A stretch of 64,000 nt of DNA from assembly GCF_001813675.1 (NCBI RefSeq), contig NZ_KV813675.1:400823-464822 (forward strand), written 5' to 3'. How positions within the stretch are numbered: the first letter of the stretch is position 1; each line of letters opens with the position of its first letter. Both the position numbers and the translations under genes were made by a program. Under the pieces are notes generated by a model that searched no databases, was not told the origin of the DNA, and saw only the letters and a list, made by a program, of their open reading frames with translations. The DNA comes from Streptococcus sp. HMSC078D09 (lineage in GTDB: Bacteria; Bacillota; Bacilli; Lactobacillales; Streptococcaceae). Positions 23,866-55,572 of this stretch are shown here, piece after piece.

Positions 23866-24324
23866 ATGGGACGTTTATCTAGTTTATTAATTGGTGTGAT
23901 TTCAGGTGCTTCAGCAGCCTACTATTTGTCAACAGAGCAAGGTAAGAAAGTTACTAAAAAAGTTGTGCGCTTTGTAAAAGACTATCAAGAAGATCCTCAA
24001 GAAGTGCATGAATCAGTTAAACAAACTGCTAAAGATGTTTCAAAACAAGCAGCAGAAGTGATCCAACAAACCAAAGAAAAAGTTGGATCTGGAGAAATTA
24101 CGACAGGAACTGTTTTGGAATCTGTCAAAGAAAAAACGCAAGATGTGGTTGAAAAATCTCAAGAAGTCTATCACTCATTTAAGGATAGACTTCAAAAAGA
24201 AAATCTAAGTGGCAATGACTTGGTTCAATCCATTCGCAAACAAACAGAATCAGAAGACATCGTGCTAGACTTGGATGAAAAAGATCCTAAAGAAGCGGCT
24301 GAAGAAGAAACAAAAGAAGCATAA
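23866..24324 (+). CDS. YtxH-domain protein
   Basis: 152 aa. The N-terminal hydrophobic/Gly-rich segment LLIGVISGASAAYYLSTEQ with GKKVTKK is typical of YtxH; the rest is a charged helical tail (repeated KE/VK pattern) ending in an acidic stretch. General stress or envelope role by family association. Last gene of the hprK operon. Confidence 0.88.
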   Translation: MGRLSSLLIGVISGASAAYYLSTEQGKKVTKKVVRFVKDYQEDPQEVHESVKQTAKDVSKQAAEVIQQTKEKVGSGEITTGTVLESVKEKTQDVVEKSQEVYHSFKDRLQKENLSGNDLVQSIRKQTESEDIVLDLDEKDPKEAAEEETKEA

Positions 24325-24352
24325 AAAAATGAGGCCCAGTAGGCCTCGTTTT
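24324..24352 (+). terminator. Terminator of the hprK-lgt operon
   Basis: GAGGCC/GGCCTC stem with a 5-nt loop and TTTT after it. A second near-equivalent terminator lies beyond the foldback repeat (24605-24634). Confidence 0.85.
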
Positions 24353-24358
24353 AGATTG

Positions 24359-24531
24359 AGGACAAAGTCATCTAAAAAACTTTCCTTAGGTGAGTGCGGA
24401 CGTCAGCGAACTTCAAAGAAGTTCTATGACTTAGTTTTGAACCTAAAGTTTCAAAACTCCCGAGTGCCTGAAACAATTATGTTTCAGGCACTTTTCTCAC
24501 GGCGGAAAATTTTAGTAGATGATTGAATAAT
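24359..24531. repeat. Foldback repeat, copy 1
   Basis: About 173 bp with imperfect terminal inverted arms: left AACTTTCCTTAGGTGAG, right CTCACGGCGGAAAATTTTAG, with GTCATCT and AGATGATT further out. Inside are hairpins GAACTTC/GAAGTTC, AGTTTTGA (24433-24440)/TCAAAACT (24451-24458), and GTGCCTGAAAC (24464-24474)/GTTTCAGGCAC (24481-24491). It is the reverse-orientation match of 54512-54683. No ORF is supported inside, and no transposase is present, so it is MITE- or structured-RNA-like. Confidence 0.85.
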
Positions 24532-24604
24532 TCAAACGAATAAATTTTTTTATTTTTGTAGAATTTTTCAGATTTATAAAAAAGAACAGTTTGTCTACGC
24601 TCTC

Positions 24605-24634
24605 AAAATGAGGCTCTCGGAGCCTCATTTTTTT
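24605..24634 (+). terminator. Second terminator beyond the foldback repeat
   Basis: TGAGGCTC/GAGCCTCA stem with a short loop and a run of seven or more T. It closely resembles the hprK-operon terminator at 24324-24352. Confidence 0.85.
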
Positions 24635-50790: not shown

Positions 50791-50876
50791 ACCACTCAAG
50801 GGAGTAGCTGGCGGTTTTCCGCGATAGTGTCGTCATTACGAATTATTTCCGGCACTATATTAAACAGCGAGACTTG
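50791..50876 (+). ncRNA. yybP-ykoY (Mn2+) riboswitch
   Basis: The leader contains the class hallmarks: CAAGGGAGTAGC at the 5' side, the internal CGTCATTACG and CCGGCACTAT segments, and a 3' AACAGCGAGACTTG that closes the P1 stem with CAAG. The 3' P1 strand (GACTTG) is also the 5' arm of the following terminator, so Mn-stabilised folding should prevent termination and switch the exporter on. A pneumococcal Mn-exporting ATPase is known to be controlled this way. Confidence 0.88.
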
Positions 50877-50904
50877 TTTTTTTAAAAAACAGGTCTCTTT
50901 TTTT
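50869..50904 (+). terminator. Riboswitch-controlled terminator
   Basis: GAGACTTGTTTTTT pairs with AAAAAACAGGTCTC, followed by seven T (50898-50904). It overlaps the P1 3' strand of the riboswitch. Confidence 0.85.
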
Positions 50905-50935: not shown

Positions 50936-53620
50936 TTGTCAAAAGAACAAAATAAAGATTTGTTTTACACGCAATCTTCTGAGGAAGTCCTAAAGAACTT
51001 GGACTCATCTGTCGAAGGTTTGTCAACCGCCCAGGCTCAAGAACGCTTAGCGAATTATGGTCGTAATGAGTTGGAAGAGGGTGAAAAACGTAGCCTACTA
51101 GCTAAATTCCTTGATCAATTTAAGGATTTGATGATTATCATCTTGCTTGTGGCAGCGACACTTTCTGTGATTACAGAAGGAATGGACGGTCTAACGGATG
51201 CCATGATCATCTTGGCCGTTGTTGTCTTGAATGCTGCCTTTGGGGTTTACCAAGAAGGGCAAGCAGAAGCAGCCATTGAAGCTCTGAAAAATATGTCTAG
51301 CCCCATGGCTCGTGTTCGTCGTGATGGCCATGTTATTGAGATTGACTCAAAAGAATTGGTACCCGGAGATATCGTCTTGCTTGAAGCGGGAGATGTCGTG
51401 CCTGCAGATATGCGTTTGTTTGAAGCAGCTTCTCTTAAAATTGAAGAAGCAGCTCTTACAGGGGAGTCTGTGCCAGTTGAAAAAGATGTGACAGGACTTG
51501 TTGAAGCAGATGCTGGTATTGGGGACCGCGTTAATATGGGTTACCAAAACTCAAATGTAACTTATGGTCGTGGTATTGGTGTCGTAACAAACACTGGTAT
51601 GTATACAGAAGTTGGTAAGATTGCAGATATGTTGGCTAATGCCGATGAGACTGAAACACCATTGAAGCAAAGCTTGGAACAATTATCTAAAGCCTTGACT
51701 TACTTAATTGTTGTGATTGCGGTCATTACTTTCTTAGTTGGTGTCTTCGTTCGTGGAGAGCATCCATTAGAAGGCTTGATGGTTGCGGTAGCCCTTGCGG
51801 TTGCGGCCATTCCAGAAGGACTTCCTGCCATTGTAACTATCGTTCTATCTTTGGGAACTACAACCCTTGCCAAACGCAATTCGATTGTTCGTAAATTACC
51901 AGCGGTTGAAACTCTTGGTTCAACAGAAATCATCGCATCTGATAAAACAGGTACTTTGACCATGAACCAAATGACGGTTGAGAAGGTTTATACAAATGGT
52001 CAATTGCAAAGTTCGGCAACTGAAATTTCTGCTAGCAACAATACCCTTCGTATCATGAACTTTGCCAATGACACTAAAGTGGATCCATCTGGTAAATTGA
52101 TTGGGGACCCAACGGAGACAGCCCTTGTACAGTTTGGTTTGGACCACAACTTTGATGTTCGTGAAGTCTTGAAGGATGAGCCACGTGTGGCTGAATTGCC
52201 ATTTGACTCTGACCGTAAGCTTATGTCTACTATCCATAAGGAAGCTGATGGTTCATACTTTATCGCTGTCAAGGGTGCTCCTGACCAATTGCTTAAACGC
52301 GTGACACGTATTGAAGTCAATGGGGAAGTTCGCCCCATCACAGAAGAAGATAAAAATGCTATCCTTGCCACTAACAAAGACTTGGCTAAACAAGCCCTCC
52401 GTGTCTTGATGATGGCTTATAAGACAAGCAACGAAATCCCAACCTTGGAATCTGAAATCGTTGAGTCTGACCTCATCTTCTCTGGTTTGGTCGGCATGAT
52501 TGACCCTGAGCGTCCAGAAGCAGCAGAAGCTGTTCGTGTCGCTAAGGAAGCAGGTATCCGTCCGATCATGATCACAGGTGACCACCAAGATACAGCGGAA
52601 GCTATTGCCAAACGTCTCGGTATCATCGATCCAAATGACACAGAAGATCACGTCTTTACAGGAGCTGAGTTGAATGAACTCTCTGATGAAGAATTCCAAA
52701 AGGTCTTCAAACAATACTCTGTTTATGCTCGTGTATCACCTGAACACAAGGTTCGGATCGTGAAAGCCTGGCAAAAAGAAGGTAAAGTTGTTGCCATGAC
52801 TGGTGACGGGGTTAATGACGCACCATCACTTAAGACAGCTGACATCGGTATCGGTATGGGGATTACTGGTACAGAGGTTTCTAAGGGAGCATCTGATATG
52901 GTCCTTGCTGATGACAACTTCGCAACCATTATCGTAGCGGTTGAAGAAGGACGTAAGGTCTTCTCAAATATCCAAAAATCTATCCAGTATCTCTTGTCTG
53001 CCAATATGGCTGAAGTCTTCACCATCTTCTTTGCAACCCTCTTTGGTTGGGATGTGTTGCAACCAGTTCATCTTCTCTGGATCAACTTGGTAACTGATAC
53101 TTTACCAGCTATCGCTCTTGGGGTAGAGCCTGCTGAGCCAGGCGTGATGACCCACAAACCTCGTGGACGTAAATCTAACTTCTTTGACGGTGGTGTCTTC
53201 GGAGCTATCCTTTATCAAGGAATCTTCCAAACTATGCTGGTTCTTGGTGTCTATGGTTGGGCTTTGATTTCTCCTGAACACTCTACCCGGGCAGAAATCC
53301 ATGCTGATGCTTTGACCATGGCCTTTGCGACTCTTGGATTGATCCAATTGCTCCATGCCTTTAACGTTAAATCGGTTTACCAATCGATCTTTAAAGTGGG
53401 ACTCTTCAAGAACAAAACTTTTAACTGGTCTATCCCAGTAGCCTTTATTCTCTTAATGGCGACGATTATGGTACCAGGATTCAATAAACTCTTCCACGTG
53501 TCTCATTTGAGCTTGACACAATGGTTGGTGGTTGCTGTAGGTGCCCTTATGATTGTTGTCCTTGTTGAAATCGTTAAAGCCGTTCAACGTGCACTTGGTA
53601 AGGATAAAAACGCCATTTAA
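50936..53620 (+). CDS. P-type cation exporter (MgtA/PacL-like ATPase)
   Basis: 894 aa P2-type ATPase. N-terminal cation-ATPase domain, TGES in the actuator domain (EEAALTGESVPVEK), the PEGLP motif in TM4, phosphorylation motif DKTGTLT, nucleotide-binding KGAPDQLL, hinge MTGDGVNDAP, and C-terminal TM helices. The start is TTG at 50936 after AAGGAGGAGA, giving MSKEQNKD. Exports Mn and/or Ca; the Mn riboswitch in the leader argues for Mn detoxification. Confidence 0.94.
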   Translation: MSKEQNKDLFYTQSSEEVLKNLDSSVEGLSTAQAQERLANYGRNELEEGEKRSLLAKFLDQFKDLMIIILLVAATLSVITEGMDGLTDAMIILAVVVLNAAFGVYQEGQAEAAIEALKNMSSPMARVRRDGHVIEIDSKELVPGDIVLLEAGDVVPADMRLFEAASLKIEEAALTGESVPVEKDVTGLVEADAGIGDRVNMGYQNSNVTYGRGIGVVTNTGMYTEVGKIADMLANADETETPLKQSLEQLSKALTYLIVVIAVITFLVGVFVRGEHPLEGLMVAVALAVAAIPEGLPAIVTIVLSLGTTTLAKRNSIVRKLPAVETLGSTEIIASDKTGTLTMNQMTVEKVYTNGQLQSSATEISASNNTLRIMNFANDTKVDPSGKLIGDPTETALVQFGLDHNFDVREVLKDEPRVAELPFDSDRKLMSTIHKEADGSYFIAVKGAPDQLLKRVTRIEVNGEVRPITEEDKNAILATNKDLAKQALRVLMMAYKTSNEIPTLESEIVESDLIFSGLVGMIDPERPEAAEAVRVAKEAGIRPIMITGDHQDTAEAIAKRLGIIDPNDTEDHVFTGAELNELSDEEFQKVFKQYSVYARVSPEHKVRIVKAWQKEGKVVAMTGDGVNDAPSLKTADIGIGMGITGTEVSKGASDMVLADDNFATIIVAVEEGRKVFSNIQKSIQYLLSANMAEVFTIFFATLFGWDVLQPVHLLWINLVTDTLPAIALGVEPAEPGVMTHKPRGRKSNFFDGGVFGAILYQGIFQTMLVLGVYGWALISPEHSTRAEIHADALTMAFATLGLIQLLHAFNVKSVYQSIFKVGLFKNKTFNWSIPVAFILLMATIMVPGFNKLFHVSHLSLTQWLVVAVGALMIVVLVEIVKAVQRALGKDKNAI

Positions 53621-53743: not shown

Positions 53744-54412
53744 ATGAAAAAGTTTTTTGCTGAAGTTATCGGCACATTTATGCTTGTCTTTATCGGAACC
53801 GGTGCTGTTGTTTTTGGAAATGGGACTGAAGGTCTTGGGCATTTAGGAATTGCCTTGGCATTTGGTTTGTCAATTGTTGCAGCTGCATACTCTATTGGGA
53901 CTGTTTCTGGTGCTCACTTAAATCCTGCTGTTTCTATTGCTATGTTTGTCAACAAACGCTTGTCGTCTAAAGACTTGATTAACTATATCGCAGCACAAGT
54001 GGTTGGAGCAGTTCTTGCGTCTGCAACAGTATTCTTTCTCTTGTCCAATTCAGGTATGTCAACTGCTAGTCTTGGTGAAAATGCCTTGGCTAAAGGAGTG
54101 ACTCCATTTGGCGGTTTCTTGTTTGAAGTGATTGCATCCTTTATCTTTATCTTGGTCATCATGACAGTGACATCAGCTTCTAAAGGAAACGGGAAAATCG
54201 CTGGTCTTGTCATCGGTTTGAGCTTGACCTTGATCATTCTTGTTGGTTTGAACATTACAGGCCTTTCTGTTAACCCAGCTCGTAGCTTGGCTCCTGCACT
54301 CTTTGTAGGTGGTGCAGCCCTCCAACAAATTTGGATCTTTATCTTGGCTCCAATTGTGGGAGGAATTCTCGCAGCAATCGTTGCAAAAAATCTCTTAGAT
54401 ACAGAAGAGTAA
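53744..54412 (+). CDS. Aquaporin/MIP-family channel
   Basis: 222 aa with six TM segments and two half-helix NPA boxes, SGAHLNPAVSIA and GLSVNPARSLAP. The AEVIGTFMLVFIGTG start is typical of AqpZ-like water channels. The short C-loop and AqpZ-like sequence favour a water channel over a glycerol facilitator, but this is not certain. A -35/-10 pair and GAAAGGAAAC lie upstream. Confidence 0.92.
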   Translation: MKKFFAEVIGTFMLVFIGTGAVVFGNGTEGLGHLGIALAFGLSIVAAAYSIGTVSGAHLNPAVSIAMFVNKRLSSKDLINYIAAQVVGAVLASATVFFLLSNSGMSTASLGENALAKGVTPFGGFLFEVIASFIFILVIMTVTSASKGNGKIAGLVIGLSLTLIILVGLNITGLSVNPARSLAPALFVGGAALQQIWIFILAPIVGGILAAIVAKNLLDTEE

Positions 54413-54440
54413 AAAATGATTCCAGAGGAACAATTTTGAG
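54411..54440 (+). terminator. Weak terminator-like hairpin after the aquaporin gene
   Basis: GATTCC...GGAACAATTTT forms a short imperfect stem with four T. It resembles the stronger hairpin at 54688-54718 on the other side of the foldback repeat. Confidence 0.4.
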
Positions 54441-54511
54441 AACGTAGATAAAATGTTCTTCTTTGCAAATCTTATAAATTTTATAAAGACAAAAAAATTA
54501 ACTGTTAGCAT

Positions 54512-54683
54512 TATTCAATCATCAACTAAAACTTTCCTTTGTGAGAAAAGTGCTAGAAACACTCTTGTTTCTAGCACTCGGGAGTTTTGGAACCTTAGGT
54601 CCAAAACTAAGTCATGGAACTTCTTCGAAGTTCGCTGACGTCCGTACTCACCTAAGGAAAGTTTCTAAATGACTTTGTCTTCA
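54512..54683. repeat. Foldback repeat, copy 2
   Basis: About 172 bp, inverted relative to 24359-24531 and similar along its whole length. Arms (reverse strand) are AAACTTTCCTTAGGTGAG and CTCACAAAGGAAAGTTT. The internal hairpin GTGCTAGAAAC (54550-54560)/GTTTCTAGCAC (54567-54577) differs from copy 1 on both sides of the stem in a compensatory way. The AGTTTTGG/CCAAAACT stem also covaries. Confidence 0.85.
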
Positions 54684-54687
54684 GTCT

Positions 54688-54718
54688 GAAATTGGTTCCA
54701 GAGGGACCAATTTTTTAT
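54688..54718. terminator. Bidirectional terminator
   Basis: AATTGGTTCC AGAG GGACCAATT with one bulge and A/T runs on both sides. It ends the minus-strand metallophosphoesterase and backs up the aquaporin terminator. Confidence 0.7.
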
Positions 54719-55572
54719 AGTTCAAGGATAGTCATGGCTTGAGAAAATTCATGAGCAAGCTGTTTTTTCTTGTAGGCTTTAAATTCAGGAAGGTCTTTAA
54801 TTCTGCGATAGCGTTTGTAGGGGTCGTATCGTTTTGGAAAATCATATTCAGGAAAAACCTCAAAGAATTGTTTGCAGAGCTCCCATTCTCTGACATAGCC
54901 TAAAGGTCTGGCATGATAGGTGATCGTGTCAATAGTTGTTGCTGGCATTCGGTGGTGGCTATGACCAAAAATTACTTCTCTGACAGGAAATTGTCTAAAA
55001 AGCTCATGAAAGGCTTGGCTCCCTAAAAAAGCATTGAAACGTTCAAAATAAGGGTGGCGTAGGAGAAACTGACTATGGGGAACAAAGTGCATAGCGATGA
55101 TCAGGGGTTGATCCACTTGCATGAGTTCTGTTTCGAGCTCTCGCAACAAACGTTGGGTAATGGCTGGATCAGCTCCCATTCGTTGGAGGCGTCTGTCAAA
55201 CCAAAACAGATTCTTGGTTTGGAGATGTTTTTGGGGAGAGAGATTAGGAACAAAGCTGTAGTCATACCAGCCAGAAAAGGCAAGGAGTGTATGCTTTGAA
55301 AAAGGAATCTTTTGAAATTCAAAAGGTTTCATAGCTTCTTCTGATAGACCCAACATATCATGATTTCCCAAGCTAAAGGTCACAGGAAGCTGATATTGGA
55401 GTTGGGCCAAAAATTCTTGTGACGTCTTTTCAAAGCCGTTGGCAATATCTCCTGCAATATGGAGATGTTGAATTTTTCTGTCCTTGAAAAGAGTGATAAG
55501 GGTCTCTAATTCATCTTTTCCAAAGTTGTTTGAATCAATATGTAAATCGGACATAAAAGCTACTGTTGTCAT
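54715..55572 (-). CDS. Calcineurin-like metallophosphoesterase
   Basis: 285 aa. The five-block metallophosphoesterase signature is complete: FMSDLHID, HIAGDIANG, LGNHDM, AMHFVPHS and FGHSHHR. Probably hydrolyses phosphodiester or phosphomonoester substrates; the specific one is unknown. A TG-TAGACT -10-like element ends 6 bases before the ATG and no ribosome site is visible, as in several other genes here. Confidence 0.9.
   Translation of the reverse strand: MTTVAFMSDLHIDSNNFGKDELETLITLFKDRKIQHLHIAGDIANGFEKTSQEFLAQLQYQLPVTFSLGNHDMLGLSEEAMKPFEFQKIPFSKHTLLAFSGWYDYSFVPNLSPQKHLQTKNLFWFDRRLQRMGADPAITQRLLRELETELMQVDQPLIIAMHFVPHSQFLLRHPYFERFNAFLGSQAFHELFRQFPVREVIFGHSHHRMPATTIDTITYHARPLGYVREWELCKQFFEVFPEYDFPKRYDPYKRYRRIKDLPEFKAYKKKQLAHEFSQAMTILEL

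Follow-up and report, generated by a model that had tools for sequence, protein, structure and literature searches.

We find that a foldback repeat occurring twice in a 64,000-nucleotide stretch of DNA from Streptococcus sp. HMSC078D09 (the window) is very probably a MITE of the IS1182 family that inserts at transcription terminators and is flanked by duplicates of the whole terminator hairpin. At 252 bp and lacking a transposase gene, it appears to be non-autonomous; its ends are of the IS1182 type, and a DDE transposase of that family would move it in trans. Read from the sequence, the case comprises family membership by the ends, terminator targeting, whole-hairpin duplication, variable but symmetric duplications, empty sites and an autonomous partner in the genus. 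The identity of the element and its insertion sites are well supported; the chemistry we infer.

The two segments of the window that an earlier sequence-only reading had aligned over their full length are indeed homologous, with 84% identity over 252 bp in a pairwise alignment (E 3e-76). Both copies are AT-rich foldbacks, with folding z-scores of −7.0 (copy 1) and −7.9 (copy 2) against shuffled sequence, and both are ORF-free, as had been noted, with no ORF of at least 100 aa inside the 252-bp element. The earlier description of a 172-bp element was right about a real repeat that folds back but misread its boundaries, as the 172-bp foldback is an interior part of the 252-bp element. The arms that had been taken for its ends (AACTTTCCTTAGGTGAG and CTCAC..GGAAAGTTT) are the closing stem of this internal foldback, and the similarity seen to run on into the AT-rich flanks is the remainder of the element. 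When the copies are aligned with their flanks, similarity spans AGATTGAAGACAAAG to ...TTTGTCTACRYTCTC. CAGATTGAAGACAAAG and GAGARYGTAGACAAA form the true terminal inverted repeats, pairing as (C)AGAYTGAAGACAAAG against GAGARYGTAGACAAA, and the element ends are AGATTGAGGACAAAGTC and, read inward from the opposite side, GAGAGCGTAGACAAAC. Both copies are bounded by a 25–27 bp duplication of the local terminator hairpin, giving the following features:

24326..24352, no strand: left-hand duplicate of the terminator hairpin, AAAATGAGGCCCAGTAGGCCTCGTTTT, a target-site duplication of 27 bp matching 24605–24631 and starting 2 bp past the stop codon of ORF 23866–24324
24353..24604, plus strand: element copy 1, complete, 252 bp, with terminal repeats, duplication and empty sites
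24353..24368, plus strand: left terminal inverted repeat AGATTGAGGACAAAGT, the same motif as at the ends of IS1182-type IS
24377..24513, plus strand: internal foldback core, a closing stem and three hairpins, with covariation over 46 copies
24590..24604, minus strand: right terminal inverted repeat (GAGAGCGTAGACAAA on the minus strand), the motif whose search led to an autonomous IS
24605..24631, no strand: right-hand duplicate of the terminator hairpin, AAAATGAGGCTCTCGGAGCCTCATTTT
54413..54437, no strand: duplicated terminator hairpin abutting the stop of the aquaporin-like ORF 53744–54412
54438..54688, minus strand: element copy 2, complete, 251 bp, at a locus where relatives lack the element or carry it in one or the other orientation
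54530..54666, minus strand: internal foldback core of copy 2
54689..54714, no strand: duplicated terminator hairpin by the stop of ORF 54715–55572 (minus strand)

A protein flanking the element is 91–99% identical to Streptococcus parasanguinis proteins, which places the organism in the S. parasanguinis group. Whole-genome search of the window's own assembly, which we covered by searches and selected stretches, returned about 40 full or partial copies, including the two of the window, and 76 of 197 Streptococcus genomes sampled contained matches, some of them short; plasmid and phage records gave no match to the element. At the copy 2 locus, six of 11 related genomes carry a single hairpin of type AAAATTGGTTCCTTCGGAACCAATTTTTTT without the element, one is occupied in the orientation seen in the window, three are occupied in the opposite orientation with the hairpin again on both sides, and one is too diverged for judgement. 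Three genomes (L110, L111 and L113) have one hairpin and no element at the copy 1 locus, and L119 (occupied) and L121 (empty) form a third such pair. The element is therefore mobile, and the same terminator has been hit in both orientations. Neither of the outcomes that the sequence-only reading had set as refuting it came about: orthologous loci are polymorphic, and the only match to a named repeat family is an Rfam sRNA model built on a relative. At the position corresponding to window 24353, L115 (G097) carries a different repeat, starting GAGAGTGGGACAGAAATCGG (partly masked), in the same terminator site, indicating that the copy 1 terminator has been struck by unrelated elements.

Terminator-like hairpins flank most copies; they match within a locus and vary from one locus to another. 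In an automated duplication scan covering all 79 copies, degraded copies whose right ends had been set wrongly weakened the signal, and we therefore used restricted copy sets. Among the 15 copies with the best-preserved ends, flank similarity exceeded the 95th percentile of mismatched flank pairs in 14 and the 99th in 12, and both terminal-repeat types together with duplicated hairpins were present in 14. In copies with degraded ends the duplication is often unrecognisable (28–33 of 78 under loose criteria). MITE insertions were centred on the hairpin dyad in nine of ten cases, the exception sitting in a T-run. A few well-preserved copies carry non-matching hairpins on the two sides, among them L066, which is perhaps a product of recombination between two copies. 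At L067 the loop is inverted between the flanking hairpins (GTTA against TAAC) while the stem is identical.

Searching the window's own genome with the right-end motif, mismatches allowed, gave mostly chance matches and no autonomous element. In G051 the same motif retrieved a second MITE of about 172 bp, which has the same ends, an unrelated interior and target duplications that are whole palindromes. One of its copies is adjoined by an autonomous IS of 1537 bp (L208) with ends CAGATTGAAGACAAAC and CAGATTGAAGACAAAGTCC and a 21-bp duplication of the hairpin AAAGCAGTTAAAAACTGCTTT. The 484-aa transposase of this IS matches NF033551 (IS1182 family) with 451 bits, well over the cut-off of 270, and contains the Pfam domains DUF772, DDE_Tnp_1 and DDE_Tnp_1_6. 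Partner IS of this kind are 1.53–1.55 kb long, belong to the IS1182 family, encode a DDE transposase and share both ends and targets with the MITE; the MITE-type ends CAGATTGAAGACAAA and CAGAACGTAGACAAAC recur at IS ends, and the sequence that MITE and IS have in common is only about 17 bp per end. G038 contains about 40 full or partial MITE copies alongside an IS1182 relic (L254, two stops) whose ends, CAGAACGTAGACAAAC and CAGATTGAAGACAAAGTC, match the two different MITE ends. Of the 197 genomes sampled, 63 encode an IS1182 transposase that passes the cut-off. A search for one in the window's own assembly (G000) gave no match, so the element may not be mobile in this strain at present, although a MITE family does not need an intact partner in every genome that carries it. 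The MITE-like, non-autonomous mobile element suggested by the sequence-only reading is thus borne out: the repeat is multicopy, with terminal inverted repeats and duplicated targets, relatives have empty sites, and an autonomous partner of the IS1182 family shares its ends.

The targets of the IS reveal how the duplication relates to the hairpin. We measured 34 IS insertions with these ends and found duplications of 18–38 bp, exact in 32 and centred exactly on the hairpin dyad in all 34, with symmetric pairing of 95% compared to 26% in random windows of the same loci. ISfinder summaries list widely varying direct-repeat lengths for IS1182. IS copies of the same length carry duplications of 30, 19, 20, 18, 29 and 18 bp in G157 and of 26, 18, 24, 22, 24, 24 and 21 bp in G063, and same-length copies in G167 differ as well. 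One G167 copy (L273) is without a duplication. As same-length copies differ in their duplications, a fixed stagger is excluded. An ordinary fixed-stagger transposase that merely prefers palindromic terminators could account for the many duplications clustering at 20–25 bp, but it would not yield 18 to 30 bp among the G157 copies, each centred on the dyad, or the full 18–38 bp range, and we consider it very unlikely.

Two further origins have been weighed against the IS1182 assignment, and we give each of them next to no credence. The pneumococcal BOX, RUP and SPRITE repeats, of which the element might be a form, are also short, AT-rich, intergenic, folded repeats of streptococci, but similarity to a BOX-like comparison repeat extends over at most 15 bp. 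RUP is a 107-bp repeat with IS630-Spn1-like ends and a TA duplication; neither this IS630 link nor the single hairpin of SPRITE fits the ends or duplications of the element. SPRITE consists of a single hairpin with AAAA/TTTT ends, and repeats of all three kinds are almost absent beyond S. pneumoniae and S. mitis (PMC3049150). The earlier judgement that the element is none of the three therefore stands, as ends, sequence and duplications all differ. Mobilisation by an IS of the IS1202 subgroup, known for 27–28 bp duplications in streptococci, would be in keeping with the duplication length of IS1202 and ISSeq2 (PMC10132070). However, IS1202-type IS in the genus have different ends (TGTCAATCGAAAATG) and duplicate non-hairpin sequence; ends and targets exclude this subgroup as the mobiliser.

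The interior of the element is a covarying multibranch foldback. Across 46 sequences, 97.5% of cells in the proposed structure of the core are paired, and changes on both sides occur in 24 of 45 pairs, compared with 12.1 in shuffles and at most five in slid controls. A copy from another species (L067) scores 83.3 bits against Rfam RF02616 (SSRC8_2), above the gathering threshold of 72, and window copy 1 reaches 56.7 bits on the minus strand, below it. Mismatches counted on the plus strand are A/C in 21 cases and G/U in nine, an excess that weakly favours a minus-strand RNA, which is the SSRC8 orientation. SSRC8 itself gave a Northern blot signal in S. pyogenes, where its ends were mapped by circular RACE (PMC3675131). 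A loop-arm pseudoknot (CCTTAGG/CCTAAGG) was not consistently supported across copies.

The covariation, the SSRC8_2 scores, the detection of SSRC8 and the mismatch excess speak for an alternative in which the repeat is first of all a family of conserved structured RNAs, for instance an sRNA like SSRC8, which spread in some way and looks mobile only secondarily. We regard this as unlikely, though less remote than the three alternatives above. At one site, genomes differ in whether they carry the element and in which orientation, and the second MITE behaves identically with an unrelated interior, which indicates that mobility is independent of the foldback RNA. Moreover, the arms of a palindrome can correct each other at the DNA level and so mimic covariation. 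The structured-RNA family raised by the sequence-only reading is thus partly right, as a property of the interior, which covaries strongly and has relatives filed under SSRC8_2 in Rfam. Within the IS1182-family MITE, the core may act as RNA, may act as a DNA structure, or may stay palindromic through DNA-level correction.

Elsewhere in the window, Rfam SSRC10 (RF02617) matches 50795–50902 on the plus strand with 74.1 bits (threshold 56), about 34 bp upstream of ORF 50936–53620, a P-type ATPase of the calcium type; no other Rfam family reached threshold around it. In S. pyogenes, SSRC10 likewise precedes a putative calcium transporter (PMC3675131), and by this analogy the match may represent a leader RNA and not a free sRNA.

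For the IS1182-family MITE and its partner IS, the sequences show cuts placed symmetrically about the hairpin dyad at a variable distance, near the stem base in the flanking A/T tract, with everything between them duplicated. We propose that there would be two such cuts, one per strand, and that repair of the long staggered overhangs would leave a full copy of the hairpin on either side of the insertion, so that the length of the duplication (18–38 bp) would be set by the hairpin and not by a fixed stagger. The geometry suggests that the transposase recognises its target in extruded form, as a cruciform or hairpin, with attack probably at the 5' feet of both stems. The upstream gene, and the convergent gene if there is one, would each retain a terminator hairpin, and insertions should therefore be nearly neutral and able to accumulate; each duplicated hairpin presumably still terminates. 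Such an element can avoid harm, since insertion at a terminator keeps the adjoining genes intact and leaves each neighbour with a terminator hairpin.

Other IS1182 lineages in the genus treat the hairpin differently. A second subgroup (L284–L299, in G095, G196, G071 and G151) has GAGGCTGGGC- or GAGTCTGGGA-type ends and a transposase of about 508–563 aa; we detected no visible target duplication, and in many copies a T-run lies just beyond the right end, which looks like hairpin replacement of the IS1272 type. The compared transposases with GAGGCTGGGC-type ends are about 24% identical to those of the duplicating group, and the latter are 66–99% identical among themselves. A third IS1182-type group (L300–L303, in G031) has GAGCCTACTG ends and 8–9 bp duplications; two of the four copies have theirs at a terminator-hairpin loop. 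Judging by this small sample, each transposase lineage may have its own cut position relative to the hairpin. It is conceivable, at somewhat less than an even chance, that IS1182-family transposases generally read their target as an extruded hairpin, in which case DNA secondary structure, and no ruler in the enzyme, would fix the duplication. Lineages within one genus would then differ in where they cut one and the same kind of hairpin: around the whole hairpin, without visible duplication as in IS1272-like replacement (GAGGCTGGGC-type ends), or at the loop to leave 8–9 bp (two of the four G031 copies).

Taken together, these results explain an abundant unannotated repeat of oral streptococci and tie it to its transposase, and they supply many natural cases in which the length of a target duplication is dictated by the target hairpin, so that one can test directly whether a DDE transposase chooses its target by structure. 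Our literature search found no description of the MITE family, its link to an IS, or the rule that the duplication equals the hairpin. Palindrome targeting by the IS1182 family is not itself new, since a review cited in PMC5678879 names palindromes as the target of some members. In a separate survey, IS1182 insertions were over-represented between convergent genes (PMC9208149), an excess that fits terminator targeting.

Among known systems, the SSRC8_2 family (Streptococcus sRNA 8; PMC3675131) is a relative in sequence and structure whose model ends hold a terminator hairpin on both sides; it was described as a single-locus sRNA candidate, whereas the element here is mobile. Experimental lists of streptococcal sRNAs should thus be read with care, as at least one of their families has a mobile element among its relatives. 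BOX, RUP and SPRITE (PMC3049150) resemble it as small folded intergenic streptococcal repeats and differ in sequence, ends and target duplications. The IS1202 subgroup (PMC10132070) shares long target duplications (16–28 bp) but differs in its ends and, in the copies examined, in targets that are not terminator hairpins. Closest are IS1272 and TnSha1, IS1182-family elements of staphylococci (PMC5678879, PMC4923244), which likewise have a DDE transposase and stem-loop targets; these are often terminators confirmed by RNA-seq, lack a primary-sequence consensus and can be entered in both orientations at one target. By contrast, insertion of IS1272 or TnSha1 deletes part of the hairpin or replaces it, without a target duplication; around the MITE and its partner IS a complete hairpin remains on either side. 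In the model of Fig. 13 of PMC5678879, pathway b predicts just this duplication of the stem-loop when an element joins the 5' feet of a cruciform, and what was only a theoretical branch in 2017 is now fitted by many natural cases.
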